Source: Brachionus manjavacas (taxonomy: Eukaryota; Rotifera; Eurotatoria; Ploima; Brachionidae). From it: a stretch of 64,000 nt of DNA. Below the pieces are notes generated by a model. That model searched no databases. It saw only the letters and a program-made list of their open reading frames with translations, and was not told where the DNA came from. Both the position numbers and the translations under genes were made by a program. The stretch is from NCBI GenBank assembly GCA_019054805.1, contig JAHQIY010000003.1, forward strand, positions 558,001 to 622,000, read 5' to 3'. Positions 20,588-42,221 of this stretch are shown here, piece after piece. Each line of letters opens with the position of its first letter. Position 1 is the stretch's first letter.

Positions 20588-22330
20588 GAATCTCTTTAAA
20601 AAAATTTTGGAACAAAAATTGGTCTGATTATACCGATAAAATGGGCAAGAATCCCTTATCCAGCAGACCTTTCTGGAAAAAAATAAATATATTCAGATCA
20701 AAAAATAGTTCAAAACTAATCCCAACCTTACTGGCAAATAATCAAGAACTAAGCACTGATAGTGAAAAAGGAAAATTCTTTGGAGAATTTCTATCCTTAA
20801 CTTTTAGTCCCAATTCTGATTTAATTAATAATAAAACAGACAGTGAGGTAACTGATTTTAACTCGAATTTTTTTAAAAGCCACAAATCATTCATAATCAA
20901 TGAACCTATAAGCCTTAAAGAGATCAATGTAGCTATCAAAAAATTAAAAGGAGAAGGGACACCAGGACCTGAAAAAATTCAAAATATTATGCTAAAAAAT
21001 TTACCACGAACTTGTCTTCTTGATATTAAGGAACTCTTCAACCGAAGTTCTCTTCAGGATAAAATTCCCAAAGAGTGGAAAACAGCTTTCATAACCATGA
21101 TTCCTAAAAATCATCACCATTAAATGACCCAACTAACTATAGACCAATAAGCATGACAAGCTGTCTTGGTAAGCTCCTAGAGCGGATTATCTACATTAAA
21201 ATATATAGTCACCTAAGAAAGAATTCATTGTTAATCCAAGAGCAATCACGCTTCAGAAAATATTGACGAACCGCCGATAATCTTATTTTCATAATTCAAA
21301 AAATTTCTAAATCATTCAATAGAAAGAAAAAAGTCAATGCCTTATTTTTTGACATCTCAAAAGCTTTTGATAGGGTGTGGCATGACGGATTAATTTATAA
21401 ACTAATTAAAATGAACTTGCCTGACTATCTTTACCACTGGATAAAATCATTTCTTGATTCCAGGTCATTCAAAGTAAACGTAAATGGTCAAATAAGTGAT
21501 GAATATTTAATAACTGCAGATGTCCCCCAAGGTTCAGTAATTAGTCCTCTTCTGTTCAGTATATTCATCAATGATATCCCAAAGAGAAATAAAACTAATA
21601 GTGAATACTCTCTCTTATTTGCCGATGATCTAGTGACTTTTTTTATTTATAAAAAAAAGGGTAATCTAGAAAATAAGATAAACAAATATCTAAAAGAACT
21701 AGAAAGAAGGCTCTGCTAGTGGAAAATGAAAATATCACTAGAAAAGTCTTGCTTTATGGTATTTTCTAAGTATAGTAGGGAAAATTCAAATCTAAACTTA
21801 GAGATATATGGGAACAAACTCGAACGTTAAAAAAATGTAAAATTTCTAGGCATTAAGTTTGACCCAAAATTAACCTTCAACTCTATGGTTGAGGATATAA
21901 AAAAACGCTGCAACTCAAGATTAAATTTAATTAAAATTTTGCCAAACAAAAAATGGGGCTTAAATACTTAGACTTAGGTAATCTCAACAAATCATTAATA
22001 GGCTCGATTTTAGAATATTCATTTCCCTGTCTAATTTTTTTTCAGAATAAAGCATTAAAATAATTCAGGCTTTTCAAAACTCAGCAGTTCGATTTATTCT
22101 TAAACTAAAATATGATACACCCTTCAACATACTACATAATGAGGCCTTCGATAAACAAAAGGAATTAAAAGTCTCTAATCAACTTTTGAGTTGTCTGAGA
22201 GATATATTGGAGTAGGACTGAGACATTATGTTCCATTTGTAACCAGTTCCATTTTAAAGTCAAAAATTAGAAATTCAGATAAAACTTAAGTTTTGAATCT
22301 CGTGTGATATCGTTACATCGCTTGTTCAAG
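20588..22330 (+). pseudogene. LINE ORF2 pseudogene (Jockey/CR1-like)
   Basis: The longest LINE copy in the window. A block at 20641-21123 covers the region before and at the start of RT (FWKKINIFRSKNSSKLIPTL, then INVAIKKLKGEGTPGPEKIQ). The frame then changes and DPTNYRPISMTSCLGKLLER follows. Next are LFFDISKAFDRVWHDGL, PQGSVISPLLFSIFINDIP and LLFADDLVTFF (the RT active site) in 21340-21719. After that come thumb and connection pieces broken by stops. No endonuclease domain is seen, so the copy is 5'-truncated. The 3' part (from 21566) is duplicated at 23628. Confidence 0.8.
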
Positions 22331-22340
22331 AAACACATTA

Positions 22341-22513
22341 TTTAGCACGCATTTTACTTTATTTTACATTTTGGTTTTCACGCTATATTTAATGTTATTT
22401 TTAGATGTTTGCAATAAAGTTACACTTGTAGGTTTGGCAAGTTGTTTGTAAAACACAACAACTTGAAGCATGTTGGCGTGAAAGCAAGTGGAAATTTAAA
22501 CGAAATAACAAAC
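22341..22513 (+). repeat. 170-bp repeat, copy 2 of 3
   Basis: See 20411. This copy follows the LINE and leads directly into the Helitron helicase remnant. Confidence 0.8.
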
Positions 22514-22559
22514 AACTAAAAAGAGATGGATTTTCTAGTATCTTCATTTTTTTAGAACT

Positions 22560-22790
22560 TAGTTTTCATAGTTTTCTTTCGCTTTTCTTTACAACAAGTC
22601 CCAAGGTTAAACTCTTTAAAAAAGTTAGTATTTACTTTAAAACACTCTGTATTTACACACGGTCAACTTTATGTCGCACTTTCACGTGTTTCGGATTTTG
22701 ACGATATAATAAATTTTACAGAAGGTACCAAGTTTGCTCGAAATTTTGTTTACCATGACGTAAATAATTTTTTATTTATGTTTTTATAAA
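22560..22790 (+). pseudogene. Helitron (Pif1-type helicase) C-terminal remnant
   Basis: An open stretch reads VFTHGQLYVALSRVSDFDDI followed by NFTEGTKFARNFVYHD. HGQLYVALSRV is the motif VI signature of the Pif1-family helicase that forms the end of Helitron Rep/helicase proteins. Upstream a KSQGQTLKK-like region is partly recognisable (QQVPRLNSLKKL). Only the last ~60 residues are present. A second copy lies at 24620-24850. Confidence 0.75.
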
Positions 22791-23429
22791 ATTTAGATTT
22801 TTTTTTTTTTATTTTAATATTATTAAAATTAAAATTAGATTAAAAAATGAAGTTAAAGATAAATTTTGTTATCTTTCAAATCGTTTACAATTAAGAGGGT
22901 TTCTTGTTCTAATTAAATTAACATTTTTTTAAATTGCAAAAATTTTAAAAATATTTTACTTACGATGTGGAATTTTTTGAAGAGTTTTAGTGAATTTTAT
23001 ACATGTTTAAACAAAAAATATCATTGTTTTTTCTAGTTTTAAAAAATTAGCCCAAAAGCCAATATGTAACTTTTGACTTTTTTATAAAATTTTACTTGAT
23101 AGTTAGCCTTAATCATTTAGGTTTTGAGTTCGCTTCAATTCAGCTTAGAGGAACAAGCTTTTTTCCTAATATTCTTTGCAAAAAAATAAAGCAAATTTGC
23201 TTAATTCAAACTTTTAATATTTTTTTTTAATTTGTCTTTCAGGTATTATTTTACTGAAAAAAAATTAAATTTTAAAGACAAAAATTTAATCAAATCCAGA
23301 AATTCTTGCAAAATAAATTAAATCATTTTTTATATAACTACAAAATTCAAATAATTTAAATTTTTTTATTAAGCTAGAAAGAACATTTACGAAAAAAATC
23401 TGGGAAGAGTTTTGTAAAAAGGCCAAAAA

Positions 23430-23566: not shown

Positions 23567-24398
23567 AGGTAAATGATGAGTAGGGGAAATATTTTTTTGG
23601 AGCGTTTGGTCCGATCAGGGCCAAACGCATCAATGATATCCCAAAGAGAAATAAAACTAATAGTGAATACTCTCTCTTATTTGCCGATGATCTAGTGACT
23701 TTTTTTATTTATAAAAAAAAGGGTAATCTAGAAAATAAGATAAACAAATATCTAAAAGAACTAGAAAGAAGGCTCTGCTAGTGGAAAATGAAAATATCAC
23801 TAGAAAAGTCTTGCTTTATGGTATTTTCTAAGTATAGTAGGGAAAAATCAAATCTAAACTTAGAGATATATGGGAACAAACTCGAACGTTAAAAAAATGT
23901 AAAATTTCTAGGCATTAAGTTTGACCCAAAATTAACCTTCAACTCTATGGTTGAGGATATAAAAAAACGCTGCAACTCAAGATTAAATTTAATTAAAATT
24001 TTGCCAAACAAAAAATGGGGCTTAAATACTTAGACTTAGGTAATCTCAACAAATCATTAATAGGCTCGATTTTAGAATATTCATTTCCCTGTCTAATTTT
24101 TTCAGAATAAAGCATTAAAATAATTCAGGCTTTTCAAAACTCAGCAGTTCGATTTATTCTTAAACTAAAATATGATACACCCTTCAACATACTACATAAT
24201 GAGGCCTTCGATAAACAAAAGGTATTAAAAGTCTCTAATCAACTTTTGAGTTGTCTGAGAGATATATTGGAGTAGGACTGAGACATTATGTTCCATTTGT
24301 AACCAGTTCCATTTTAAAGTCAAAAATTAGAAATTCAGATAAAACTTAAGTTTTGAATCTCGTGTGATATCGTTACATCGCTTGTTCAAGAAACACAT

Positions 24399-24571
24399 TA
24401 TTTAGCACGCATTTTACTTTATTTTACATTTTGGTTTTCACGCTATATTTAATGTTATTTTTAGATGTTTGCAATAAAGTTACACTTGTAGGTTTGGCAA
24501 GTTGTTTGTAAAACACAACAACTTGAAGCATGTTGGCGTGAAAGCAAGTGGAAATTTAAACGAAATAACAA
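24399..24571 (+). repeat. 170-bp repeat, copy 3 of 3
   Basis: Lies inside SD1 copy 2 and is the duplicate of the copy at 22341-22513. Confidence 0.8.
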
Positions 24572-24619
24572 ACAACTAAAAAGAGATGGATTTTCTAGTA
24601 TCTTCATTTTTTTAGAACT

Positions 24620-24850
24620 TAGTTTTCATAGTTTTCTTTCGCTTTTCTTTACAACAAGTCCCAAGGTTAAACTCTTTAAAAAAGTTAGTATTTACTTTAA
24701 AACACTCTGTATTTACACACGGTCAACTTTATGTCGCACTTTCACGTGTTTCGGATTTTGACGATATAATAAATTTTACAGAAGGTACCAAGTTTGCTCG
24801 AAATTTTGTTTACCATGACGTAAATAATTTTTTATTTATGTTTTTATAAA
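24620..24850 (+). pseudogene. Helitron helicase remnant, duplicate copy
   Basis: Copy of 22560-22790 inside SD1 copy 2, with the same THGQLYVALSRV signature. Confidence 0.75.
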
Positions 24851-25984
24851 ATTTAGATTTTTTTTTTTTTATTTTAATATTATTAAAATTAAAATTAGAT
24901 TAAAAAATGAAGTTAAAGATAAATTTTGTTATCTTTCAAATCGTTTACAATTAAGAGGGTTTCTTGTTCTAATTAAATTAACATTTTTTTAAATTGCAAA
25001 AATTTTAAAAATATTTTACTTACGATGTGGAATTTTTTGAAGAGTTTTAGTGAATTTTATACATGTTTAAACAAAAAATATCATTGTTTTTTCTAGTTTT
25101 AAAAAAAATTAGCCCAAAAGCCAATATGTAACTTTTGACTTTTTTATAAAATTTTACTTGATAGTTAGCCTTAATCATTTAGGTTTTGAGTTCGCTTCAA
25201 TTCAGCTTAGAGGAACAAGCTTTTTTCCTAATATTCTTTGCAAAAAAATAAAGCAAATTTGCTTAATTCAAACTTTTTAATATTTTTTTTAATTTGTCTT
25301 TCAGGTATTATTTTACTGAAAAAAAATTAAATTTTAAAGACAAAAATTTAATCAAATCCAGAAATTCTTGCAAAATAAATTAAATCATTTTTTATATAAC
25401 TACAAAATTCGAAACCCCGAGGTCGCAAATGAACGGAGCTCTGCTAGGAGGTCAAAGTCAGCCGGTCAATCAACATGCCTTTGGCTTAGCCCATCATTGA
25501 CCATATGACCATCACTTAAACTATGTGGGCACTTTTATCCTGAATTGAGCGAGCAAAACGTGCATAATGTCAAAGCTTGATACAAAAATTTGGTCTTTAA
25601 AAGAAAAAAATAACACTTTTAAAAAAACCTAAATGAAATTAATGTATTGTCTTTGGAATTTTTTGGAATTCACATTTTTTAATGCGTGTTTAAAGGAGAC
25701 TTTCAATAATTTATTATTAATAATCATAATTTCTATTCTAAATTTTGTTAATATTTTTTATGATAGTCATTTATTCAAACTCATCATTATCAAATCGCTA
25801 ATTTAAATTTTATTGAGCAGTATTTTTGATATTATTTTGTTTTTTGCTTTTAAAACATTTTAATATTTTTTTATTGCACGTCATTGCAAAAATTGATGGT
25901 TTTCTTCTCTAAGTGACCGAAAAATTAAAACACGTTCCGCATCTTTTTTTTTCACATGGATTGACAATGAACTTTTAAATAAAA

Positions 25985-26560
25985 ATTAATATGCAAAAAA
26001 ATTGTCCTTTTGTGTACTTTTGTTATGAAAACTATTTACCCTAGCAAAAAAAGTGTCCTTTTGTGTACTTTTGTTATGAAAACAATTTTCATTAGCAAAA
26101 AAAGTGTCCTTTTGTGTCCTTTTGTGTACTTTTGTTATGAAAACAATTTTCATTAGCAAAAAAAGTGTCCTTTTGTGTCCTTTTGTGTACTTTTGTTATG
26201 AAAACTATTTACCCTAGCAAAAAAAGTGTCCTTTTGTGTACTTTTGTTATGAAAACAATTTTCATTAGCAAAAAAAGTGTCCTTTTGTGTCCTTTTGTGT
26301 ACTTTTGTTATGAAAACTATTTACCCTAGCAAAAAAAGTGTCCTTTTGTGTCCTTTTGTGTACTTTTGTTATGAATCCTTTTTTTCCCTAGCAAAAAAAG
26401 TGTCCTTTTGTGTACTTTTGTGTACTTTTGTTATGAAAACAATTTTCATTAGCAAAAAAAGTGTCCTTTTGTGTCCTTTTGTGTACTTTTGTTATGAAAA
26501 CTATTTACCCTAGCAAAAAAAGTGTCCTTTTGTGTACTTTTGTTTACTATTTGTTATAAA
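25985..26560 (+). repeat. Left subterminal tandem repeat array of the KDZ-like element
   Basis: About nine units of the type aaaaaaagtgtccttttgtg, then tacttttgttatgaaaac and a variable ttaccctagc or ttcattagc piece. The gtccttttgt word is present once or twice per unit. The right array at 34870-35540 is the inverted form. Confidence 0.9.
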
Positions 26561-26567
26561 TCCTCTC

Positions 26568-26811
26568 TGGTTCCACCATTTAATGTGGAACCTTTGTGGT
26601 TCCACCATTTAATGTGGAACCTTTGTGGTTCCACCATTTAATGTGGAACCTTTGTGGTTCCACCATTTAATGTGGAACCTTTGTGGTTCCACCATTTAAT
26701 GTGGAACCTTTGTGGTTCCACCATTTTATGTGCAACTTTTGTGGTTCCAACATTTAATGTGGAACCTTTGTGGTTCCATTATTAAATGTTGGAACTTTTG
26801 TGACTCAACCA
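26568..26811 (+). repeat. 29-bp hairpin minisatellite
   Basis: About eight copies of a 29-bp unit, ggttccaccatttaatgtgg then aacctttgt. Each unit is a hairpin (GGTTCCAC with GTGGAACC). The last copies are diverged. It is internal to the KDZ-like element, next to the left array. Confidence 0.9.
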
Positions 26812-26967
26812 GACTTGTGCGTAAGTCAGTAAGTCAAAGTCAAAGTTAAGTCAAGTCATTTGACTTGACTTGACTTTAAAAAAAAATTTCTTAAGTCAAG
26901 TCAAATCTTTGACTTCACCAAAAAATGACTTAAAAATGACTTAAGTTTTTGACTTACGCACAAGTCT
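26811..26967. mobile_element. Small foldback MITE nested in the KDZ-like element
   Basis: The ~157-bp inverted repeat begins AGACTTGTGCGTAAGTC and ends GACTTACGCACAAGTCT. Its interior is rich in aagtcaagtca/tgacttgactt words. It interrupts the 29-bp minisatellite: ctcaacca lies before it and ttcaacca shortly after it, an imperfect 8-bp duplication. The style is like hAT MITEs. Confidence 0.7.
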
Positions 26968-27246
26968 TGATTCAACCATTTAATGTGGAACCCTTTCGCT
27001 TTAAAATAAATCAAGAAACATTGCTGGCATTGCAATTAATGATTTTTCATGAATTTGATTTTTTTAAACAACCCATTTTAGTTATTTTTGTAATTCAACA
27101 TTTAAATCTTGGCATTTTAATCTAGTTACATACATATATATATGTTCTTTTAATATTTTTCTTTTTATATTATCTGTATCAAAAATTAAATAATTAATTT
27201 ATTATAATATTATGACTAATTAAAAGCAAAACTGAATTTTTAATAA

Positions 27247-29092
27247 TTATTTATTGTGTGTTAATTTTTCAATAATTTTGAATGATAAATTTGCTTTATT
27301 AAATTCATTACAAATTAAAAATATAAAAAACTTAAATCGCTCCTTATTCATATGTTTTAATGCATATTTGTAACCTGAGAACCAAAAATTTACTTGTTCT
27401 ACAATTGATGTATTAGCATCCTTTATCTCAACATAATTGTTTGGGTTACATTTTGTTTTGCAGTATTCATTGGCCTTTTTGTGCCCTTTATAATGGAATC
27501 GATCAATAATAATAATTTTTTTTCTTAATTCAACTAATCTTGCTGTTTCTAGTTTAATCTTTTCGCTTGAGTCAATAAATTTTTTTAGATGACAACCGTC
27601 ATCATATCCGATATAAAGAGGTTTCTGTTCAATATTTTCGTAAACATCCATTAAAAAACATGTAGATTGAACAAGTGTTTCTGAGCCAAAAATTTCCCTA
27701 AATCCACATATAATTCCACAGTTGTACACGGCTAAAAACTCACCTACAGTTCTTGATTTTTTTTCACACGGCAAGGCAAATGTTTTTAGTGTTTTGCATG
27801 AATTGTTATATGTATGGACATCTCTTAAAAATGATGTTAAAATCGAATTTGGTATCTGTTTTTCGGTTGCCCAGAAAGGAGATTTATCAGAATAATCTAC
27901 CAAATACATAACTTGATCATTTTTGCTAAGAAAACTATCATATATATTTAAATTTTCTTTGGAAAGTTTTCCTCTACTTGGCTTTATTTGACTTAAACTA
28001 CATTCAAATGTTGTATTTCCGTACTTGAATTTAACTAGCGGATCAATATGTTGATGATCTTCACAAAAATAGCTTTTTCTTTTAGGTGAATTTGGACATC
28101 CAATATCAACATCACCTAATATAATCATTGATTAGAATTTATTAACAATTAAAATTTAAATTTGCTACCGAATTCTAAGTTTTTCATTTTCACTAAAGGA
28201 AACATACATTTTAATCGATTAATCTTATAATTTCCATCGATACTAATTACTTGAGAGCAATTTTGAAACTGACAAGCATTTCTATGAATTGGTCCACCCC
28301 AAATATTACTAAATAAGGAGAATACTGATCTATTGAACTCTTTTAAATTTAAATCCAATTGATTTATATAAAATGCATCAATGTCACTTAAGTTTTCTAA
28401 TTCTATTTTTGATTTCAATAAATTATAATAAAGATAGCATTCGGTTATTCTTTTTTCTTGTAAGAAGATAAAATCTTTATTGTTAGATTTTGACATTGTG
28501 AAAAAAAAAAATTATAGGAATTTGTAAAAGATTTAAATGAAGAATGCTTAAATAAAATATCCGAAGTCAAACTAAGCAAAATTTTTTCATCAAAAATAAT
28601 TTCATTCGAAAAAGAATAATAATTTGATTTCAGAACATCCGAGTAAAAAGTTCGTTTACCGCATTTATCAGTGTAAAAATTTAAATAGTATTTTTTGCCG
28701 CATCTCAGACAAATTTTTATTGTATAGTTGACCTTGCTAGCTCCAAAATCAAAGCTATATAAGACTACATCAAAATAATTAAATACATCCAGATGCTCGA
28801 TGGGACAAAATAGGCAATATTTTAGATCTACTGAAAAATTGTTTAATTTGAATCTGTCTATCACCATATCTAACTCGTTTATATTTTCGAAAAAATTTAA
28901 TGGATAGATTTGAGAACCAAATTTAACCTTTTTTAAATAACTTTCGATGCTTGTTTTTTCAAAATTCTTGCCTGTGAAAATATTTAATATATTAATAATG
29001 ACTGAAATATCCGAACTTTTTAATTTAGATAGAATTCGATGGAACACTAAAAGATCATCAATGCAACAAAATGGTTCCAAAAATGTATCCAT
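27247..29092 (-). CDS. KDZ-type transposase (Kyakuja-Dileera-Zisupton family)
   Basis: Exon 29092-28169, a 53-nt intron (28116-28168, GTAGCA...TTATATTAG) and exon 28115-27247, about 597 codons. The ATG at 28128 lies within the intron and is not a start. The N-terminal part has paired cysteines (KYCLFCPIEH and KICLRCGKKYYLNFY) and the conserved LLSLTSDILFKHSSFKSF stretch. The middle has a CxC-like zinc cluster (RNACQFQNCSQVISIDGNYK, then DIGCPNSPKRKSYFCEDHQ). The C-terminal half has YIGYDDGCHLKKF, DRFHYKGHKKANEYCKTKC and NTSIVEQVNFWFSGY, the acidic and cysteine-histidine motifs of KDZ transposases. One frame break lies at the A run 28501-28510. Upstream exons may be missing. The transposase role is inferred from family motifs. 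Confidence 0.75.
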
Positions 29093-29683
29093 AGTCGATA
29101 TTTTAATAAAGATATTTTCTTAAAAAAAATATGTTAAAATTTTATAATTTTTATTGATATTGAAACAAATTTTCATTTAAAGATTATATGAAAAGTTTTT
29201 ACTTGTCTGCAAAATAATTTTTTTATAAATTTTATTAAATAAAAATAAATAAATATTTAAAAAGCTAAGCTACCAGCTTTTGGACCATGTATCATGGCGA
29301 ATTTATACATTTTTAACATTTTTTATTGATGATTTTATTTGCATGTCTTAATTGTAGTTCAGCATTTAAGTTCTAATGACCATAATTAAAAAAAATTATA
29401 AAATATTTTATAGTTTATTATTTCAAATTTTGTACAAAATCTCGAACATAAGAAATTTTTATCGAAAAAAGTATTGAGGTTTTGATAATTGACTTTTACT
29501 TCGCTTGCAGATTAAATTCTTTTCTTGTAATTTATAATGAAAAATTTAATTTTATGTTCAAATATAGATAAAGTTACATATTAAGATTTTAATTTTCGTC
29601 AATTTAGTTTAATTTACAAATATTTAGATATTAAAAATAATAAAGAAATTACGAACAAAATTAAAAAATAAAGTTTTAAAATT

Positions 29684-32600
29684 TCACAACTCTTTCGGAT
29701 CGATAATTAAGTACTCATCGCTTTTTGATTCCATTGATTTTAATTTTAATTTGGATTTTTTTTTGGTCTTTGTATCAATATTGGAATCTTGATTTGAATT
29801 ATCTTCAGTTATTTTTTTTTTTACTTTTTTTGAATTATTTTCCAAGAAATTTTGAAAGCGATTGATATCTGTTCTTTTGAAAGGGGTTTTTGTGTTGCAG
29901 CTTAGATCTGAATTTTCTTTTGTTTGATCCTTTTATATAAGAATCTTTTTTAATATTAATCTTAAAGAAATGCATGCAAAAGAAGTTTTATAAATTTATT
30001 TGAGAATTTTTAATTCTCTAAAGGTCTTATTCAGTTTGAATTAGACTTTCTATTCAAATCGCATGAACAGACTTCATATTATTTTTTAAATTGAATAGAG
30101 ATTAAAATAAAGGTTATTTAATTAAAATCTTAAAATTTCCATGGATAGTCAATTTTATTTAACTATAAAATAAAAATTTGCTGTTTTTCCTTTTTCAGAA
30201 TTTGATTTTATTTGATCCTGCACCATTATGTACTTGATCAATATTTTTTTTTATTTTCCATGTTCCTATGTTCTTTTTAGTTTTTTTAATCATAAATAAA
30301 AAACTAAACGGGGTCCGGGGCGGAGCCCTGGTTTAGGGATTCGGGTATATTGAAGATTAGAGAAGTATTTGTTTAAAAATTAAACGGGGTCCGTGGCGGA
30401 GCACTGATTAAGGGATTTGTCTATGTTAAAGATTAGAAAAGTTTTTGTTATAATTCAAATTAATTATTTAACTAATAATAAAATGAAATCTTTATATAGT
30501 TATTTAAAAGTCCAGAAAGTTCAAGACATAAATCAGGGTCAAACGATTCTAAAATTAATACAATGTACAAACAGTATAGGGAGGATATTTACTTTTTAAA
30601 TTTTCATTGTATTTCCTAAAATTTATTGATCATCACTAATTTAAGTTTAATTTAATTTAGTTAAAATGTTTAAGTTTTAAGTGTTTATATATTAGAGAAG
30701 AATTACTATAGCTTCAGATACATTTGTCAAAATTTCAAAGTCAAGTCATGGCATTTTTTATCTGTTTTTTTTTTCAAATTAATTGATTTTTTAAAAATAA
30801 TTTTTTTAAAAAAAAATCTTATTTTTAAGTCTTAAAAAAATAATGTTTTGTAAATTAAATGCATATCTTTCTTTTAGTTATTATTATGATTTGATTATTA
30901 TGTTTTTTTTTTTTATTAATAAATTTCTGTAACAAATTTTAGTCAAAACACTTGGTTCTATTTTACGATCCTTTAATTTCACTTTTTTAACTTAGTTGTA
31001 AATTTTAATTTAATTATATTATTAATTTTAATATTTACTAGAAAATCCTTTATGTTTTTAGTGCTTGACATGTTTTTTTTTTATTGCTTGAATCCATTTC
31101 AACATTTTGAGCTAAATTGGTGGTTTTATTTGTCTTTTGTGGAGTTGAAAATAAAATATTTTGTCTATGTTCATTAGCTTTAATTTCATTCCTATCAACA
31201 AAACTTATCTCATTGATAAGCTCTTTTGAGATTTCATGTTCAAAGTTTCCTATTTATTAGTAAATAAAATTTAATATTCAAAAGATTATACTTTTAAAAT
31301 CATTACTATTTGAATTAATCTCTTTTTGAGTTGAGAAGTCTAGAAATTCTTCTGGGATATCAACTCTATCATCAAATTGTTTCTCTGTATTTTTCTTATT
31401 CTTTAAATATGAAAAAGGGTCATCAAAAGTCATTTTTCCTTTAAAAAAATTATTCAAAAATTCCGAAAATAAATTAAAAAACTTTTAGGCGTCGATAAGT
31501 CATTTTCATCGGACATATTGGTTTTTTTGGTCTCGATGCTGGCTTTGTTTACTCCTTTTTAATTTATAGATTTTGATAGTAAAAAATGTGAATATTAACA
31601 AAATCATACTTTGAAAATCATTACCATTTGAATTAATCTCTTTTTGAGTTGAGAAGTCTAGAAATTCTCCTGGGATATCAACTCTATCATCAAATTGTTT
31701 CTCTGTATTTTTCTTATTCTTTAAATATGAAAAAGGGTCATCAAAAGTCATTTTTCCTTTAAAAAAATTATTTCAAAAATTCAGAAAATAAATTAAATAA
31801 CTTTTAGGCGTCGATAAGTCATGTTCTTTGGACATATTTGTTTTTTTGGTCTCGATGCTGGCTTTGTTTACTCCTTTTTAAATTATAGATTTTGATAGTA
31901 AAAAATGTGAATATTTACAAAATCATACTTTGAAAATCATTATTACTTGAATTACTCTCTTTTTGAGTCGAGAAGTCTAGAAATTCTTCTGGGATATCTA
32001 CAATATCATCAAATTGATTCTTTGTATTTTTCTTATTATTTAAAGATATTAATGAGTCATTAAAAGTCGCTTTGTACACTCCTCATAGAATTTAAAAATT
32101 TAGTGTTGTAAAAAATCGATTTAATTAATTTACTAGACATAAAATCAGCAGGGCTTATTCCAATTTTTGCAAGATTCGATATTGCTTGATTATTTTTATT
32201 TAGCTCATGTTGATTTATCTTTGTAAAATACTTATTTGGCTTTGAAAAATTAATATTTTTATTTATTAAGTTCAAAATATAAATAAATTAATTAAAATAT
32301 TTTGATATTATTATTATTATTTTAGGCTCATTTATAAAAATAATATAAAAAATTCAATATAATTTACTTTTTTTAAAATTCCATTTAACTTTTCGTCAGT
32401 CAAAGTGCCAAGTCCCAAATTTTCCAATTCAATTGCCACGGTACAAATGTCGTCTTTTTTATAAGTTTTAGACAAACTTTGATTCAGATCGTTAATTTTG
32501 AAAGTAAGAGACTCATCTGTTGGAAAAAATAAAATTTTTTTTGATAATTCATTAAATTTAATATTATAATTTTTAATGTTCTCAGGCAAAATTATTTTTT

Positions 32601-34598
32601 TCGCCATTCTATCCATTATTTGAAATAAATCAAGGGTATAATCGATATTTTCATATTCAGCAAAGCATAATTTATTTTTATTAAAATAATTAACCAAATT
32701 TACAGCTTTTTTTAGACTTTCTTCACTTATTATATTGAATTTATTATTTTGCTTAGTTATCGATATAATAGCAGATTCCAGTCTTGGATTTATCTTCTGG
32801 ATATTTAAATTCAATTGTTCTATGGCTTCCAATTGTTTTAAAATTGAGTAAGATTTTTTGAAAATATGGATAAACATCGCAATTCTTAATATTTGTGAAG
32901 CAGATTTTCCACACATTGCGCTTTCAATCAAAACTCATTTTAAAAAATCAAATTTTATAATAAGCTTACGCCATAAATAGATCGTAGTTATTTCCAAACT
33001 TTTCAGCGAAGATTTTAAAAGAATCATATATTTTATAGAAATAATGAGTAGCTTTTTCTTCTAGAATATATTGAATAGGAATTTCATTTAGTTTGCTTAT
33101 GATGTACAACAGAACTGTTAAACAATATTTTTCAGGAGGTATTTTAACCATATCCTCTGTCTTGAAATAAATGGGTCTTGGAGCACAAATATGGAAACGT
33201 TGAATTAATCCATCATCTCGTGAATTTTTTCTTGTCGCACAAAATTAATATAATCACTCATGTGTCCTAATTTTTAATTGTTGAATTAATAAAAATTCTA
33301 AAATTTAAATAAATTGAATTTTCCTATAAGAAATTTTAAAATTTATAGTGCACAAAATTTGGAAAAAATAAATCTTTGGTTTGAAAGATGATGGGTTCTT
33401 TAGGTATATAGGTATTATTTTCCGATTTATGTATTATGTTCATTAAATGCTCTTCTTAAATCTTTGGTTTAAAACATAAGTAATAAAATTTAAAAAAAAA
33501 TTTATAATCACCCTTCAAGTACTTTGGGGAACATAAATTCATTAATTTCCAGTTTTGTCTACTCCTTTATTTTCATTTTTTTATTAATATTTTCTTAATT
33601 TTTTTTTAAATTACATTTAGTTTTTTATTCTAAATAGATGAAAAAATATAAAAAAGGTGAAAATAATGGAAAAATAAAAAATACTAAGTTTTTCATGCTT
33701 GCAACAGTAATTTAAAATTATTTTTTATTTTAAAACATCATTTTTTATTTTGAATATGCACTATTTCAATGTTATTTCAACATTGGATACATTAAGCATA
33801 CACTGAATCTCGGTCGATCTATATAAAAGCGATTACTTGTCAGTGTTCTGTCGTAACCATCTGGGCCGGTATACAATTCTAAGTAAACACTTCGGTCATA
33901 TTTACCGTCTCCACCTTTATATAAACCAAACGAACTCATAAAGGTTGAGGACTCGTCAAAAAAGCTGACCATGCAAGGATTTGTTTCCAAGTTTGTTAAT
34001 AAAGCTTCAACTGTACCAGCTAAAAATTTTTATACATCTTATTTCAAATATATTCATTTTAAATTTTACCATTAATTAGATTTGATTTTTTTCTAGGAAT
34101 CTTCTTGTATTCTTCGATTTGATTTAGGCTTTTTTTAATTAGAGACATTGCAGTACTTTTGCCAGTAGAAGGATTTGCTACCAAACATGAATAAAAAACG
34201 CTCTTCTCGCTCAAAGTTGTTAAGGTGGAAACATAAGAATGTTGCATTAAATGTGCAATACCAGTAAAAAGTGGACAAATTAAAAATTCTTTGCATACAG
34301 AATGTCTTGCTCTTTAAAAATAATTATCTTAAATTTTAATTAAGATTTTTAATTTAAAATATTAATGCTAATTCAAAAATCATTCATGAAATATATATAG
34401 AAAATTAAAAATTTAGCTAAGCTTAATTAAAATAATGAATTTTATATTAGATGAAATTGTTTACCCAATTCCATGTAGGTAACTTCCGATTTCTCCATCA
34501 AAAACTGGTTCGAATGGAATTTTATAAAGTTTTTCCTGAACGCGACTGATTTCCAAATTCTTGCAAAAATTTTCAAGGACCAAGTTTTTTTTCGCCAT
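29684..34598 (-). CDS. Multi-exon P-loop ATPase gene (DUF3987-like) of the KDZ-like element
   Basis: Exons on the minus strand chain with matching phase: 34598-34465, 34311-34070, 34019-33791, 33230-32970, 32920-32368 and 32239-32134, then repeated short exons, and a last exon 29929-29684 ending in TGA. A small extra exon near 33505-33564 is possible. The protein has a Walker A motif (VANPSTGKSTAM) in exon 2, a Walker B-like MVSFFDES and DRSVYLELYTGPDGYDR in exon 3, and RDDGLIQRFHICAPRP in exon 4. A helical C-terminal domain (AMCGKSASQILRIAMF) follows. The order resembles DUF3987-type primase/helicase-like ATPases. The tail is polar and ends lysine-rich with a nuclear-signal look (TKTKKKSKLKLKS). 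I infer a DNA-handling partner of the transposase. Exon calls after 32134 are less certain. Confidence 0.6.
30306..30440. repeat. Tandem pair with GC-rich core
   Basis: Two ~77-bp copies of a unit starting aaacggggtccg(g/t)ggcggagc. The GC-rich core is a near palindrome and stands out in very AT-rich DNA. It lies inside a probable intron of the ATPase gene. A related word, gatccgaggccgagccttgg, occurs at about 50248. Confidence 0.7.
31290..32083 (-). repeat. ~310-bp tandem duplication carrying exons of the ATPase gene
   Basis: Two and a half copies with starts near 31293, 31606 and 31916. Each full copy holds a mini-exon (SIETKKTNMSxExDLSTPK) and a second exon (MTFDDPFSYLKNKKNTEK, ending in ...NDF) with conserved GT-AG borders and phase 1. 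The protein tail therefore gains a repeated acidic/polar unit per copy. The third copy is the most diverged. Confidence 0.75.
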
Positions 34599-34869
34599 TT
34601 CTAAACTATTTTAATTACATAAAAAGGTATTAATGCAGTATTTAAAATTATAAAAATTCTATATTTGAAATCTTCAATTTATTCTCGTCATGATTTAATT
34701 TCTGTATTTTTTAAAAATTTTTAATTTTTATAGAAAAATTATGTTTAAAAATTTTGAACAATATTTTAAAAAATTTAAATAAAGTTAACAAAACACACCT
34801 TTAACTAAAGAAAAATGATTATGTAACAAATGACTCCAAAAGAGAACAATTTTTTTATTTAGTTAATGC

Positions 34870-35540
34870 GGATTTATAACAAAAGTACACAAAAGTACAC
34901 AAAAGGACACTTTTTTTGCTAGGGAAAATAGTTTTCATAACAAAAGTACACAAAAGGACAAAAAAGGACACAAAAGGACACTTTTTTTGCTAATGAAAAT
35001 TGTTTTCATAACAAAAGTACACAAAAGGACACAAAAGGACAATTTTTTTGCTAGGGAAAAAAAGATTCATAACAAAAGTACACAAAAGGACACAAAAGGA
35101 CATTTTTTTTGCTAGGGTAAATAGTTTTCATAACAAAAGTACACAAAAGGACACAAAAGGACACTTTTTTTGCTGGGGAAAAAAAGATTCATAACAAAAT
35201 TACACAAAAGTACACAAAAGGACACAAAAGGACACTTTTTTTGCTAGGGAAAAAAGATTCATAACAAAAGTACACAAAAGGACACAAAAGGACACTTTTT
35301 TTGCTAATGAAAATTGTTTTCATAACAAAAGTACACAAAAGGACACAAAAGGACAATTTTTTTGCTAGGGAAAAAAAGATTCATAACAAAAGTACACAAA
35401 AGGACACAAAAGGACATTTTTTTTGCTAGGGTAAATAGTTTTCATAACAAAAGTACACAAAAGGACACAAAAGTACACTTTTATTGCTAGGGAAAAAAAG
35501 ATTCATAACAAAAGTACACAAAAGGACACTTTTTATTCAA
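34870..35540 (-). repeat. Right subterminal tandem repeat array of the KDZ-like element
   Basis: About eleven units of the inverted form of the left array (aacaaaagtacacaaaaggacac with variable tails). Together with 25985-26560 it gives the element long inverted repetitive shoulders. Confidence 0.9.
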
Positions 35541-37133
35541 GTGAATAGTATGGTAAAATAAGTTCATTGTCTATTGCTCTTTTTTCATTATCAAAATTAT
35601 CAATCATCAAAATTACAATATATAATTATTTTGTTTCAAATTCTTACGTTTTATGAAATAATTGTAATTGTAATATTTTATTTAAATTAAAAGGAGTTCA
35701 GCATTTTCTCAAATCTCGATTTAAAAAAACATTTTGAAAAACCTTATATAACCCTAAATAAAAAATTCAAGGTTAATAATTTTTTTGTATATTTTAACTT
35801 CTTTTAGCCTTCTAAAATTGTATTCTAAAACCACGCAATTTAAAAAAAATATCCACGTGAGATATTTAGAAAAATATGCTTTTTAATCAAAGAATCGAAA
35901 TTTTTTTGATTCCTTATTCGAAATTAGAAAATGGAATCAAAAAAGGCAAAGAAATTATTTTACGAGTCTTAAAGGAATAAATATATTAATAATTAATAAA
36001 TTATTGTTAATTATCGATATAAATTATCAATACATTTCGAAAGTAAATTCAAGAAAAGGTTTCATAATCAACTTTCATTGTCATTAGAAAGAAAATATCA
36101 CCTCAATATTGGTATCAATTAAGCGATCTTGGTTAAAGGATGTAAAACGAGAAATTAGTTTAAAGAAAAAACAAAAAAACTATTTTATTCGAATATTTAA
36201 AAACCTTCTGATTATATTATATTAATCCAAATATCAGGCAGCTTGAACAAGAAGTATGGAATTTACAGATAATTGTGATTTAAAAAGACAGCAACATTAA
36301 AAGTTTATAAAATCAAATTTTTAACCAATAACATGTAATTATTTTAAATTATAAATAAATTTTTTTGTTTTTTCAACATTATTAGTTAAAACTAAAACGT
36401 GTTTAAATCATGTTAAAAATAATTCAAAAGTGAAGAATGTAATTTTAGTTTTTTGAGTGCGCACAAATAATTTTAAAGTCATTATAAATTTTAAAAAAAT
36501 TTTAACTTTCTTTAAAAATGAATTAACTATTTCTCGATTTAAGTGCAACGATGAATTTTTATGATTGTGATGATTATTACTTAAAAGCATATTTGTTATA
36601 AAATAAAGAAATCTTGTTTAAAATGCTAAATGTAAGTGTAATGTGTAGAGGTTTAGGAAAAAAATAGGCAATTAAAATTATTGATGAAGAAAAAATTTTG
36701 CTGTTAAAAATTATGGCACATCTAAGATCTAAAACACATGTACTAGTTATGTAAAAGTTGAAGGAAATGACTTATTTGTTTTTAAATTTTAAATTATACC
36801 AAATTTTTCTGTTATTTTAGCAAATTTGTCCAGTAAAAAAATCATTTTATTGACAATGGTTTAATTTTATAGCCACTTTTCTAGTCTTTTTTTATCTGGG
36901 AGGAAATTGGTTTTCCCTCAACTACTTACAAATGTGTGAAATAAATATATTCTATTTAAATTCAGTAATTGTTAACATTGGAGAATTGACAAAGAAAATA
37001 AAAAAAAAATTCAAAAAAAAAAGTTATTTTCTTAAATTATTAAATGGGAAATACAATCAGCACAAATCTTGTTCTCGGGTTTAGTTAACACTTAATATTT
37101 TGAACATTTTCTAGATTAGATGAACGTTTTTTA

Positions 37134-37375
37134 AATGTAAGTGTAATGTGTAGAGGTTTAGGAAAAAAATAGGCAATTAAAATTATTGATGAAGAAGGCG
37201 TTTGCGTTTGGCCCTGATCGGACCAAACGCTCCAAAAAAATATTTCCAATAAATTTCCAAAAATTATTTCCAAAAAATATTTCCAAAAAATATTTCCAAA
37301 AAAATATTTCCAAAAAAATATTTCATGACATGGTCATGGAAAGCGGCCACTAATAAGAGATTTGCCTTCATTAAG
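37134..37375. other. Junction between SD2 copies
   Basis: Starts with a 65-bp local copy of 36625-36690 (aatgtaagtgtaatgtgtag and onward). Next is a 44-bp stretch that is the inverted copy of 23585-23628 (gcgtttggccctgatcggac and onward), then several tattccaaaaaa-type repeats. No gene. Confidence 0.7.
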
Positions 37376-38959
37376 TTCGAAACCCCGAGGTCGCAAATGA
37401 ACGGAGCTCTGCTAGGAGGTCAAAGTCAGCCGGTCAATCAACATGCCTTTGGCTTAGCCCATCATTGACCATATGACCATCACTTAAACTATGTGGGCAC
37501 TTTTATCCTGAATTGAGCGAGCAAAACGTGCATAATGTCAAAGCTTGATACAAAAATTTGGTCTTTAAAAGAAAAAAATAACACTTTTAAAAAAACCTAA
37601 ATGAAATTAATGTATTGTCTTTGGAATTTTTTGGAATTCACATTTTTTAATGCGTGTTTAAAGGAGACTTTCAATAATTTATTATTAATAATCATAATTT
37701 CTATTCTAAATTTTGTTAATATTTTTTATGATAGTCATTTATTCAAACTCATCATTATCAAATCGCTAATTTAAATTTTATTGAGCAGTATTTTTGATAT
37801 TATTTTGTTTTTTGCTTTTAAAACATTTTAATATTTTTTTATTGCACGTCATTGCAAAAATTGATGGTTTTCTTCTCTAAGTGACCGAAAAATTAAAACA
37901 CGTTCCGCATCTTTTTTTTTCATTATCAAAATTATCAATCATCAAAATTACAATATATAATTATTTTGTTTCAAATTCTTACGTTTTATGAAATAATTGT
38001 AATTGTAATATTTTATTTAAATTAAAAGGAGTTCAGCATTTTCTCAAATCTCGATTTAAAAAAACATTTTGAAAAACCTTATATAACCCTAAATAAAAAA
38101 TTCAAGGTTAATAATTTTTTTGTATATTTTAACTTCTTTTAGCCTTCTAAAATTGTATTCTAAAACCACGCAATTTAAAAAAAATATCCACGTGAGATAT
38201 TTAGAAAAATTTGCTTTTTAATCAAAGAATCGAAATTTTTTTGATTCCTTATTCGAAATTAGAAAATGGAATACAAAAAGGCAAAGAAATTATTTAACGA
38301 GTCTTAAAGGAATAAATATATTAATAATTAATAAATTATTGTTAATTATCGATATAAATTATCAATACATTTCGAAAGTAAATTCAAGAAAAGGATTCAT
38401 AATCAAATTTCATTGTCATTAGAAAGAAAATATCACCTCAATATTGGTATCAATTAAGCGATCTTGGTTAAAGGATGTAAAACGAGAAATTAGTTTAAAG
38501 AAAAAACAAAAAAACTATTTTATTCGAATATTTAAAAACCTTCTGATTATATTATATTAATCCAAATATCAGGCAGCTTGAACAAGAAGTATGGAATTTA
38601 CAGATAATTGTGATTTAAAAAGACAGCAACATTAAAAGTTTATAAAATCAAATTTTTAACCAATAACATGTAATTATTTTAAATTATAAATAAATTTTTT
38701 TGTTTTTTCAACATTATTAGTTAAAACTAAAACGTGTTTAAATCATGTTAAAAATAATTCAAAAGTGAAGAATGTAATTTTAGTTTTTTGAGTGCGCACA
38801 AATAATTTTAAAGTCATTATAAATTTTAAAAAAATTTTAACTTTCTTTAAAAATGAATTAACTATTTCTCGATTTAAGTGCAACGATGAATTTTTATGAT
38901 TGTGATGATTATTACTTAAAAGCATATTTGTTATTAGTGTTGGTGTCCGTGCAAGCGGA

Positions 38960-40689
38960 CAGTAAACGGGCCAAAAATTTTAAAAACCGTGACCGTGACC
39001 GTATTAACCGTTCCAATTTTGGCGGGCGGACTCTGGCCCGTTTATTTTGGCGGGCTAATTTTTGGCCCGTTTAATAAACGTTTAAAAATAAACGGGCGGT
39101 CCAAGAAACCGTTCCAATTTTGGCGGGCGGACTCTGGCCCGTTTATTTTGACGGGCTAAATTTTGACCCGTTTAATAAACGTTTAAAAATAAACGGGCGG
39201 TCCAAGAAACCGTTCCAATTTTGGCGGGCGGACTCTGGCCCGTTTATTTTGGCGGGCTAAATTATGGCCCGTTTAATAACCGTTTAAAAATAAACGGGCG
39301 GTCCATGAAACCGTTCCAATTTTGGCGGACGGACTCTGGCCCGTTTATTTTGGCGGGCTAAATTTTGGCCCGTTTAATAACCGTTTAAAAATAAACGGGC
39401 GGTCCATGAAACCGTTCCAATTTTGGCGGACGGACTCTGGCCCGTTTATTTTGGCGGGCTAAATTTTGGCCCGTTTAATAACCGTTTAAAAATAAACGGG
39501 CGGTCCATGAAACCGTTCCAATTTTGGCGGACGGACTCTGGCCCGTTTATTTTGGCCCGTTTAATAAACGTTTAAAAATAAACGGGCGGTCCAAGAAACC
39601 GTTCCAATTTTGGCGGGCGGACTCTGGCCCGTTTATTTTGACGGGCTAAATTTTGACCCGTTTAATAAACGTTTAAAAATAAACGGGCGGTCCAAGAAAC
39701 CGTTCCAATTTTGGCGGGCGGACTCTGGCCCGTTTATTTTGGCGGGCTAAATTATGGCCCGTTTAATAACCGTTTAAAAATAAACGGGCGGTCCATGAAA
39801 CCGTTCCAATTTTGGCGGACGGACTCTGGCCCGTTTATTTTGGCGGGCTAAATTTTGGCCCGTTTAATAACCGTTTAAAAATAAACGGGCGGTCCATGAA
39901 ACCGTTCCAATTTTGGCGGACGGACTCTGGCCCGTTTATTTTGGCGGGCTAAATTTTGGCCCGTTTAATAACCGTTTAAAAATAAACGGGCGGTCCATGA
40001 AACCGTTCCAATTTTGGCGGACGGACTCTGGCCCGTTTATTTTGGCGGGCTAAATTTTGGCCCGTTTAATAACCGTTTAAAAATAAACGGGCGGTCCATG
40101 AAACCGTTCCAATTTTGGCGGGCGGACTCTGGCCCGTTTATTTTGACGGGCTAAATTTTGACCCGTTTAATAAACGTTTAAAAATAAACGGGCGGTCCAA
40201 GAAACCGTTCCAATTTTGGCGGGCGGACTCTGGCCCGTTTATTTTGGCGGGCTAAATTATGGCCCGTTTAATAACCGTTTAAAAATAAACGGGCGGTCCA
40301 TGAAACCGTTCCAATTTTGGCGGACGGACTCTGGCCCGTTTATTTTGGCGGGCTAAATTTTGGCCCGTTTAATAACCGTTTAAAAATAAACGGGCGGTCC
40401 ATGAAACCGTTCCAATTTTGGCGGACGGACTCTGGCCCGTTTATTTTGGCGGGCTAAATTTTGGCCCGTTTAATAACCGTTTAAAAATAAACGGGCGGTC
40501 CATGAAACCGTTCCAATTTTGGCGGACGGACTCTGGCCCGTTTATTTTGGCGGGCTAAATTTTGGCCCGTTTAATAACCGTTTAAAAATAAACGGGCGGT
40601 CCATGAAACCGTTCCAATTTTGGCGGACGGACTCTGGCCCGTTTATTTTGGCGGGCTAAATTTTGGCCCGTTTAATAACCGTTTAAAAA
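38960..40689 (+). repeat. Left 101-bp tandem array of the foldback element
   Basis: About 17 units, each with aaccgttccaattttggcgg and ggcccgtttattttggcggg. Two variants (cgggcggac with aagaaacc; cggacggac with atgaaacc) alternate in blocks. The block order recurs at about 39100, 39590 and 40120, so the array itself grew by duplication of blocks of several units. Confidence 0.9.
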
Positions 40690-40924
40690 TATTTTTTATT
40701 TTTTAAATAAAATTTTTATTTTTTTTTTTTTTTTTTTTTTTAAGATTTTTATTTTTTATTAATTTTTAAATAAAATTTTTTTCGTAGATTTTTTTTATTT
40801 TTTTTCTAATTAAAAAATAACTTTTTTTTTAAAAAATAAATATATTAAGATAGCTTAATTTTTTATTTATTTCCTGTTTTTTGTCAAAATTAAGACCGCC
40901 AAGTTGACCGGCAAAATTAACGCT

Positions 40925-41645
40925 CGCCAAAAATCTGGCCGGTTATTTGACCGCCCGTTTATTTTTAAACGGTTATTAAACGGGCCAAAAATTAGCCCGC
41001 CAAAATAAACGGGCCAGAGTCCGTCCGCCAAAATTGGAACGGTTTCATGGACCGCCCGTTTATTTTTAAACGGTTATTAAACGGGCCAAAATTTAGCCCG
41101 CCAAAATAAACGGGCCAGAGTCCGTCCGCCAAAATTGGAACGGTTTCATGGACCGCCCGTTTATTTTTAAACGGTTATTAAACGGGCCAAAATTTAGCCC
41201 GCCAAAATAAACGGGCCAGAGTCCGTCCGCCAAAATTGGAACGGTTTCATGGACCGCCCGTTTATTTTTAAACGGTTATTAAACGGGCCATAATTTAGCC
41301 CGCCAAAATAAACGGGCCAGAGTCCGCCCGCCAAAATTGGAACGGTTTCTTGGACCGCCCGTTTATTTTTAAACGTTTATTAAACGGGTCAAAATTTAGC
41401 CCGTCAAAATAAACGGGCCAGAGTCCGCCCGCCAAAATTGGAACGGTTTCTTGGACCGCTCGTTTATTTTTAAACGTTTATTAAACGGGCCAAAAATTAG
41501 CCCGCCAAAATAAACGGGCCAGAGTCCGCCCGCCAAAATTGGAACGGTTTCTTGGACCGCCCGTTTATTTTTAAACGTTTATTAAACGGGTCAAAATTTA
41601 GCCCGCCAAAATAAACGGGCCAACAACCGCGATGAACCGCCCGTT
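40925..41645 (-). repeat. Right 101-bp tandem array of the foldback element
   Basis: About seven inverted units showing the same two variants. Confidence 0.9.
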
Positions 41646-42221
41646 TCTGGACCGGTTAGCTCTGTCCGCGTCCAACACTATTTGTTATAAAATAAAGAAA
41701 TCTTGTTTAAAATGCTAAATGTAAGTGTAATGTGTAGAGGTTTAGGAAAAAAATAGGCAATTAAAATTATTGATGAAGAAAAAATTTTGCTGTTAAAAAT
41801 TATGGCACATCTAAGATCTAAAACACATGTACTAGTTATGTAAAAGTTGAAGGAAATGACTTATTTGTTTTTAAATTTTAAATTATACCAAATTTTTCTG
41901 TTATTTTAGCAAATTTGTCCAGTAAAAAAATCATTTTATTGACAATGGTTTAATTTTATAGCCACTTTTCTAGTCTTTTTTTATCTGGGAGGAAATTGGT
42001 TTTCCCTCAACTACTTACAAATGTGTGAAATAAATATATTCTATTTAAATTCAGTAATTGTTAACATTGGAGAATTGACAAAGAAAATAAAAAAAAATTC
42101 AAAAAAAAAAGTTATTTTTTTAAATTATTAAATGGGAAATACAATCAGCACAAATCTTGTTCTCGGGTTTAGTTAACACTTAATATTTTGAACATTTTCT
42201 AGATTAGATGAACGTTTTTTA

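Follow-up and report, generated by a model that had tools for sequence, protein, structure and literature searches.

The KDZ transposons are the closest described systems to the element reported here. In excerpts of the papers on their characters, Zisupton and Dileera are given 8-bp target-site duplications and Kyakuja 7-bp duplications (PMC12730594, PMC12810828, PMC9297572, PMC12062965, PMC5718144), Kyakuja being defined by the 7-bp duplication together with 5'-CA..TG-3' termini (PMC12730594), and the Cryptococcus elements KDZ1-3 are described as 9.2-11 kb long with terminal repeats of 139-241 bp (PMC12810828). DUF3987 proteins of phages and plasmids are described, again in an excerpt, as predicted helicases (PMC5862659). 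Here we describe E1, a 9,625-bp transposon at positions 25955-35579 of a 64,000-nucleotide stretch of DNA from the rotifer Brachionus manjavacas (the window), which carries two minus-strand genes, one for a KDZ (Zisupton-type) transposase and one for a spliced DUF3987 ATPase. Among the literature titles and abstract openings searched, none reported an AAA+ partner for a KDZ element, a mention in Bohne 2012 or Iyer 2014 being possible. We are nearly certain that this two-gene KDZ element is real and recurrent, and we consider it probable that the ATPase serves transposition.

The element was delimited by comparison with an empty site. The host segment into which it inserted is duplicated, and an uninterrupted copy of its flanks (37373-38934) sits 12 kb away. 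Within the window, the left flank (25405-25954) matches 37373-37922 at 99.8% and the right flank (35580-36599) matches 37915-38934 at 99.4%, and because these two matches overlap by exactly 8 bp, they fix the limits of the element, its perfect 8-bp duplication and the empty site. An earlier note on this DNA had claimed a transposon with an 8-bp duplication, an empty duplicate site at 37914-37922 and inverted repetitive shoulders; all three hold, with the exact empty site at 37915-37922. The shoulders are arrays of the decamer GTGTMCTTTT, which occurs 25 times in the left 620 bp in one orientation, 28 times in the right 775 bp in the other, and is absent from both strands of the element's interior and of the remaining window. 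The outermost bases are CA at the left end and TC at the right, which, with the 8-bp duplication, places E1 outside the definition of Kyakuja. The element and its ends comprise the following features.

25955..35579, no strand: the whole element, copy E1, from the empty-site comparison; both ends are present in 7 genome copies
25947..25954, no strand: left copy of the target-site duplication TTTTTTCA, from the flank comparison
35580..35587, no strand: right copy of the target-site duplication, from the flank comparison
37915..37922, no strand: empty site within the duplicated host segment, from the flank comparison
25955..25974, plus strand: left terminus CATGGATTGACAATGAACTT, with GACAATGAACTT in common with the right terminus
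35560..35579, minus strand: right terminus, in reverse complement GAGCAATAGACAATGAACTT, an imperfect inverted repeat of the left terminus
26003..26557, plus strand: left subterminal array of 61-bp units based on the decamer
34876..35529, minus strand: right subterminal array, inverted
26568..26802, plus strand: 29-bp minisatellite TGGTTCCACCATTTAATGTGGAACCTTTG, adjoining the left array on its inner side

A profile search of the E1 reading frames identified the transposase domain PF18758 (33.8 bits; cut-off 26.6) and, in the same gene, the CxC5 zinc cluster PF18718 (40 bits; cut-off 26.9), a cluster of the CxC type. The motifs DGNYK, YDDGC and VEQ occur in this transposase, and we take them to be its putative DDE catalytic motifs. 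For the second gene, which spans 34598 to about 29684, four exons searched singly against DUF3987 (PF13148) scored 12.6 to 34.5 bits, a single exon exceeding the cut-off of 27, and the spliced composite scored 104.9 bits, confirming the family that the earlier note had raised; its relatives P0001 and P0003 scored 76.5 and 75.3 bits. The composite is 96% identical to the predicted B. plicatilis protein BpHYR1_031578 (P0001), the junctions of which coincide with those we predicted for most of the core and tail. P0001 skips the end of exon 3. Two observations back the junction between exons 3 and 4: the relatives P0002 and P0003 are continuous across it, and locus C4 is interrupted at the corresponding position. 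The two minus-strand genes, the three KDZ motifs YDDGCHLKKF, HYKGHK and NTSIVEQVN and the RDDGLIQRF box of the earlier note are all present in the sequence, and its reading of the genes needed correction for a frame offset in the transposase and, relative to copy E2, a junction deletion and a 1-nt frameshift in the ATPase.

28445..29092, minus strand: transposase piece A, N-terminal region with the CxC5 zinc cluster (PF18718, 40 bits), ATG at 29092
28169..28496, minus strand: transposase piece B, DGNYK motif (28238), in a frame offset from piece A
27247..28115, minus strand: transposase piece C, transposase domain (PF18758, 33.8 bits) with YDDGC (27606) and VEQ (27402); predicted splice acceptor
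34465..34598, minus strand: ATPase exon 1, junction in agreement with the annotated protein P0001
34070..34311, minus strand: ATPase exon 2, Walker A ANPSTGKS
33793..34019, minus strand: ATPase exon 3, Walker B MVSFFDES; end approximate, 3' junction deleted relative to copy E2
32970..33266, minus strand: ATPase exon 4, RDDGLIQRF box, 1-nt frameshift relative to copy E2
32368..32920, minus strand: ATPase exon 5, end of the AAA+ domain and a winged-helix domain
29684..32239, minus strand: ATPase C-terminal tail, encoded in short exons, among them a 319-bp exon block in tandem repeat (31258-32044); the final open stretch (29684-29932) is a prediction past the end of P0001

The pairing of the two genes recurs across the genome. 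Searches of 114 Mb returned 75 ATPase and 59 KDZ matches, which fell into 30 ATPase and 34 KDZ clusters, and at a distance limit of 10 kb these formed 12 pairs. Ten are on the same strand with the ATPase upstream, 1.6-5.5 kb apart; of the other two, one is a cross-pairing between adjacent copies and one an antisense fragment. Random placement gave a mean of 0.17 paired ATPase clusters (maximum 3 in 2000 trials), compared to the 10 of 30 observed, and the order, with the ATPase upstream of the transposase, is kept in pairs down to about 30-40% identity. Patterns for the element ends (up to 3 mismatches) were found at 10 left and 9 right places, with both ends in 7 copies; five of these seven carry both genes and represent four independent insertions, each with a perfect 8-bp duplication, E4 and E5 being counted as one since they have their flanks and duplication in common. 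Among the diverged lineages, E7 has ends of the same kind as E1 and a duplication matching at 7 of 8 bases, and E9 has the same left terminus. For E6, E8 and E10 no clear terminal pair was seen in the sequence examined, E8 having short inverted subterminal repeats. Two trivial explanations were considered and rejected: nested or chance neighbours, given that order and strand recur in 10 pairs compared to 0.17 expected and that the ends are held in common, and an artefact of local duplication, given that the window flanks are duplicated but copies elsewhere have different duplications.

Gene models from other Brachionus species bear on the same question. The B. calyciflorus model P0006 begins with a stretch resembling the ATPase tail (30% identity over 135 columns, with an E value of 2e-8 for that single comparison) and continues into a KDZ transposase with 59% identity to that of E1 over 71% of the query; its KDZ Pfam match, at 22.9 bits, is below the cut-off of 26.6, and it has no CxC5 match. 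The two-gene KDZ lineage put forward in the earlier note is thus upheld by the four independent insertions with the same ends, by the diverged lineages and by a joined model in a second species. As a separate observation, four KDZ-like places with 27-44% identity to the E1 transposase lie at G000:C1 about 8021955-8058425, and their spacing of ~12 kb suggests a tandem array.

To the extent that rough ratios allow, both genes appear to be under purifying selection between lineages. Comparison of E1 with E6 gave a ratio of nonsynonymous to synonymous substitution (dN/dS) of 0.083 over 199 codons of the ATPase (nonsynonymous and synonymous differences per site, pN 0.13 and pS 0.68) and of 0.30, 0.22 and 0.17 for transposase pieces A, B and C, and the figures for E3 against E6 are similar. 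These ratios are rough, with synonymous sites near saturation; in the ATPases of E1 and E7 they are saturated.

By sequence, the ATPase is related to DUF3987 proteins of phages and plasmids, which are predicted to be helicases. Across 58 aligned rows, the Walker A lysine, the Walker B DE and the arginine of the box are each present in 58, of which only the Walker A count is unbiased, the Walker B stretch and the arginine box having been the recruiting patterns for most rows. A confident structure model of one relative has an MCM-type AAA+ fold, with the superposition on MCM beginning at residue 34-35 of the model and sequence identity of 10-14%. MCM proteins also have an N-terminal OB/zinc domain, and this was not found, only about 35 residues preceding the superposed part of the model. 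Protein searches beyond the genome, by a method that requires shared 5-residue words, returned only Brachionus proteins and one or two unnamed or metagenomic ones.

These observations suggest that an animal transposon recruited a motor protein of its own. The likeliest origin of the ATPase is a DUF3987 helicase of phage or plasmid type that an ancestor of the lineage captured and selection then preserved. The data above support the pairing of the genes, their retention and the fold; we infer which way the capture went, the assembly into a ring, the unwinding and the stage at which the ATPase acts. The transposase, with its CxC5 cluster and transposase domain, would recognise the short inverted ends, and perhaps also the oriented decamer arrays, and would make 8-bp staggered insertions, a step backed by the ends, the duplications and the family assignment. 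The second gene would supply a predicted MCM-like AAA+ ATPase followed by a winged helix and a long tail, which may form a ring on the DNA of the element or of its target, and its ATP-driven opening or remodelling of DNA might then let the transposase cut or join, or let an intermediate be replicated. From sequence and modelled structure, the MCM-like fold and the between-lineage selection make help in transposition plausible, and we judge the chances as about even that the ATPase acts there as an unwinding or remodelling motor.

The same protein could instead be a regulator of target selection or transposase activation in the manner of MuB, TnsC and IstB; it would coat the target DNA or bend it, and bring in or license the transposase, with no unwinding. 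AAA+ partners of bacterial transposases act in this way (PMC11208146, in excerpt), the Walker A, Walker B and arginine box are kept, and DNA binding could come from the winged helix and the tail. However, the fold matches listed and the family neighbours are replicative helicases, with MuB, TnsC and IstB absent among those matches, though the ranking leaves others possible, and six duplications (TTTTTTCA, GGAATTGG, AAATGAGC, CGTAATTT, TAAAATTT and CCTAAAAT) have no common motif by eye. We regard such a regulator as unlikely.

Several results weigh against an ATPase that is an indispensable and currently working part of the element. The earlier note asked whether both genes always lie between the ends and named copies without the ATPase as a refutation; both genes are present in five of the seven two-ended copies, and such copies do occur in the other two, at C10 and C3:3.67 Mb, which are 5.3 kb long, have no ATPase core exons and are internal-deletion derivatives of the E1 family. 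Both have perfect, mutually different 8-bp duplications, i.e., they inserted. Small derivatives point the same way. The terminal motif CATGGATNGACAATGA has 419 genome matches (up to 1 mismatch; reversed pattern, 2) and the right-end motif TTCATTGTCTATNNCTC has 103 (reversed pattern, 0), and the matches listed on contigs C1-C4 (85 left, 51 right) form 23 correctly oriented pairs 307-765 bp apart. Perfect 8-bp duplications flank three (316-387 bp) of five small derivatives that were read, indicating that the ATPase is not needed in cis; in the other two, only 3 and 1 bases match at the duplication, and a 326-bp derivative with two left-type ends (C5:5224120) has none. Since the ATPase-less copies and small derivatives inserted, the ATPase is at most trans-acting. 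In the two ATPase-less copies (C10:3118639-3123982 and C3:3665633-3670971) we also noticed that the left array is bordered by sequence similar to that at the inner edge of the right array, as though one end had been exchanged.

ATPase matches with no recognised transposase nearby occur as well: 19 of the 30 ATPase clusters have no KDZ match within 10 kb. The earlier note had named an ATPase outside elements, as an ordinary host gene, as a possible refutation. Of four unpaired clusters viewed with their flanks, three lie near frames resembling reverse transcriptase, integrase or gag (by eye), and at locus C4, counted as unpaired and seemingly KDZ-linked, the ATPase is followed by an apparent KDZ N-terminal fragment (by eye). 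In E1 itself the ATPase is damaged, the exon 3 junction of E2 being absent and the A-run of exon 4 shorter, and transposase pieces A and B, which overlap at window 28445-28511, are out of frame in six family copies measured and, by coordinates, in E3. This damage and the frame offset weigh on current activity. The offset persists in one copy with an interrupted T-run, but by coordinates lineages E6 and E7 have the two pieces in a single frame; it may reflect a frameshift common to the family copies, translation restarting at the piece B ATG, or programmed frameshifting. No copy with both genes intact turned up, no systematic search for one having been made. Within the family, dN/dS is 0.60-0.70 for the ATPase and 0 to 1.2 for the transposase pieces, and in comparisons with E1 the ATPase differences exceed those of the transposase; we ascribe the high ATPase figures to damaged frames, which is unproven, and set the within-family ratios aside on account of low divergence and matches read through damaged frames. 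Finally, the ATPase and transposase identity matrices show only moderate agreement (r 0.82, equalled or exceeded in 12 of 720 permutations; r 0.68, in 10 of 120), and the E7 pair has 72% identity in the ATPase compared to 45% in the transposase.

An internal motif also recurs in small derivatives. It is GC-rich and predicted to form a hairpin, and E1 carries two copies.

30306..30345, plus strand: internal GC-rich hairpin motif AAACGGGGTCCGGGGCGGAGCCCTGGTTTAG..., with a diverged second copy at ~30382-30421

The motif has 683 genome matches (up to 2 mismatches; reversed pattern, 0). Of the 53 listed on C1-C4 (up to 1 mismatch), 38 have a listed end at most 1 kb away in the proper orientation (random placement: mean 0.1, maximum 2), and none has one in the opposite orientation alone. 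Folded as DNA, the main window copy gave a z of -3.5, the diverged copy -1.7 and two small derivatives -2.1 and -1.9. The oriented motif is also present in the ATPase-less derivatives and in small derivatives, and, as judged by sequence matches, it and the terminal motifs mark many of the latter. The frequency of the hairpin could be explained by shared descent of the derivatives, and it is not strictly required, as small derivative L214 lacks it and has a perfect 8-bp duplication. A further-reaching form of our reading is that a eukaryotic DDE lineage acquired an MCM-like replicative helicase of phage or plasmid type as a dedicated trans-acting motor, with the oriented hairpin as its loading or start site, such that transposition, including that of the many small derivatives, would have a helicase-driven, possibly replicative step; we offer this tentatively, as less likely than not.

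Alternatively, the ATPase may support replication of the element after its excision or copying, either episomally or through replicative transposition, again with the hairpin as loading or start site. The relatives among plasmid and phage proteins, with their replication-gene neighbourhoods or names, and the oriented hairpin in ATPase-less and small derivatives would fit this, but the perfect duplication of the hairpin-less L214 does not, and none of the nine E1 reading frames scanned matched a primase or polymerase family. We consider this role distinctly unlikely. Nor do we favour a passenger with some other use, such as counter-silencing or host fitness, and no part in the transposition reaction, a role of the sort proposed for TET/JBP genes in fungal KDZ elements. 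Accessory genes are known in KDZ elements (PMC12730594, in excerpt), and the ATPase-less derivatives did move; against this stand the between-lineage purifying selection, the gene order kept constant over deep divergence and the helicase-type relatives that point to DNA work, leaving a passenger improbable. Lastly, a single chimeric protein or transcript in place of two proteins, as P0006 might indicate, is very improbable given that P0006 is a prediction without a CxC5 match, that the annotation of B. plicatilis P0001 comprises the ATPase alone and that the transposase has an ATG of its own in piece A of E1 and in the B. calyciflorus model P0008.

The surroundings of E1 contain other rearrangements. 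To its left is a tandem 1.8-kb duplication (21566-23351 and 23628-25413, 99.5% identity). A second insertion, 2,744 bp long and resembling a transposon, occupies window 38935-41678. It has a 101-bp GC-rich repeat arranged in inverted arrays and a 10-bp duplication TATTTGTTAT, and the duplicated host segment has the corresponding empty site at 36590-36599. No Rfam match in the region reached its gathering score, and we treated them all as chance hits on repeats.

Should the ATPase take part in transposition, eukaryotes would have a counterpart to the AAA+ partners of bacterial transposases. A phage- or plasmid-type replication gene would then have settled in animal transposons, and the Brachionus derivatives, as possible reporters, would make the need of some transposons for a motor directly testable.

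Compared with known systems, E1 is like other KDZ transposons in its PF18758 transposase, CxC-type zinc cluster, size of about 10 kb and 8-bp duplications, a Zisupton and Dileera character that is without mismatch in all 4 independent full-length insertions and in both ATPase-less ones. It differs from Cryptococcus KDZ1-3 in its short terminal inverted repeat (GACAATGAACTT core) with decamer arrays, and from known KDZ transposons in carrying a DUF3987 ATPase. Fungal KDZ elements with a TET/JBP dioxygenase (PMC12730594, in excerpt) likewise carry a second enzyme gene, whereas here the accessory is an AAA+ ATPase, the host is an animal and the order is kept over deep divergence. The ATPase has PF13148, Walker motifs and a DDG..QRF box in common with phage and plasmid DUF3987 proteins; unlike them, it is spliced, resides in an animal transposon and has a long tail, with no primase domain seen. 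It differs from MCM helicases in its low identity and in leaving no room for their N-terminal domain. With MuB, TnsC and IstB it shares the arrangement of a transposon-encoded ATPase beside a DDE transposase, but those proteins are bacterial and absent from the listed fold matches, and any likeness of action is hypothetical.

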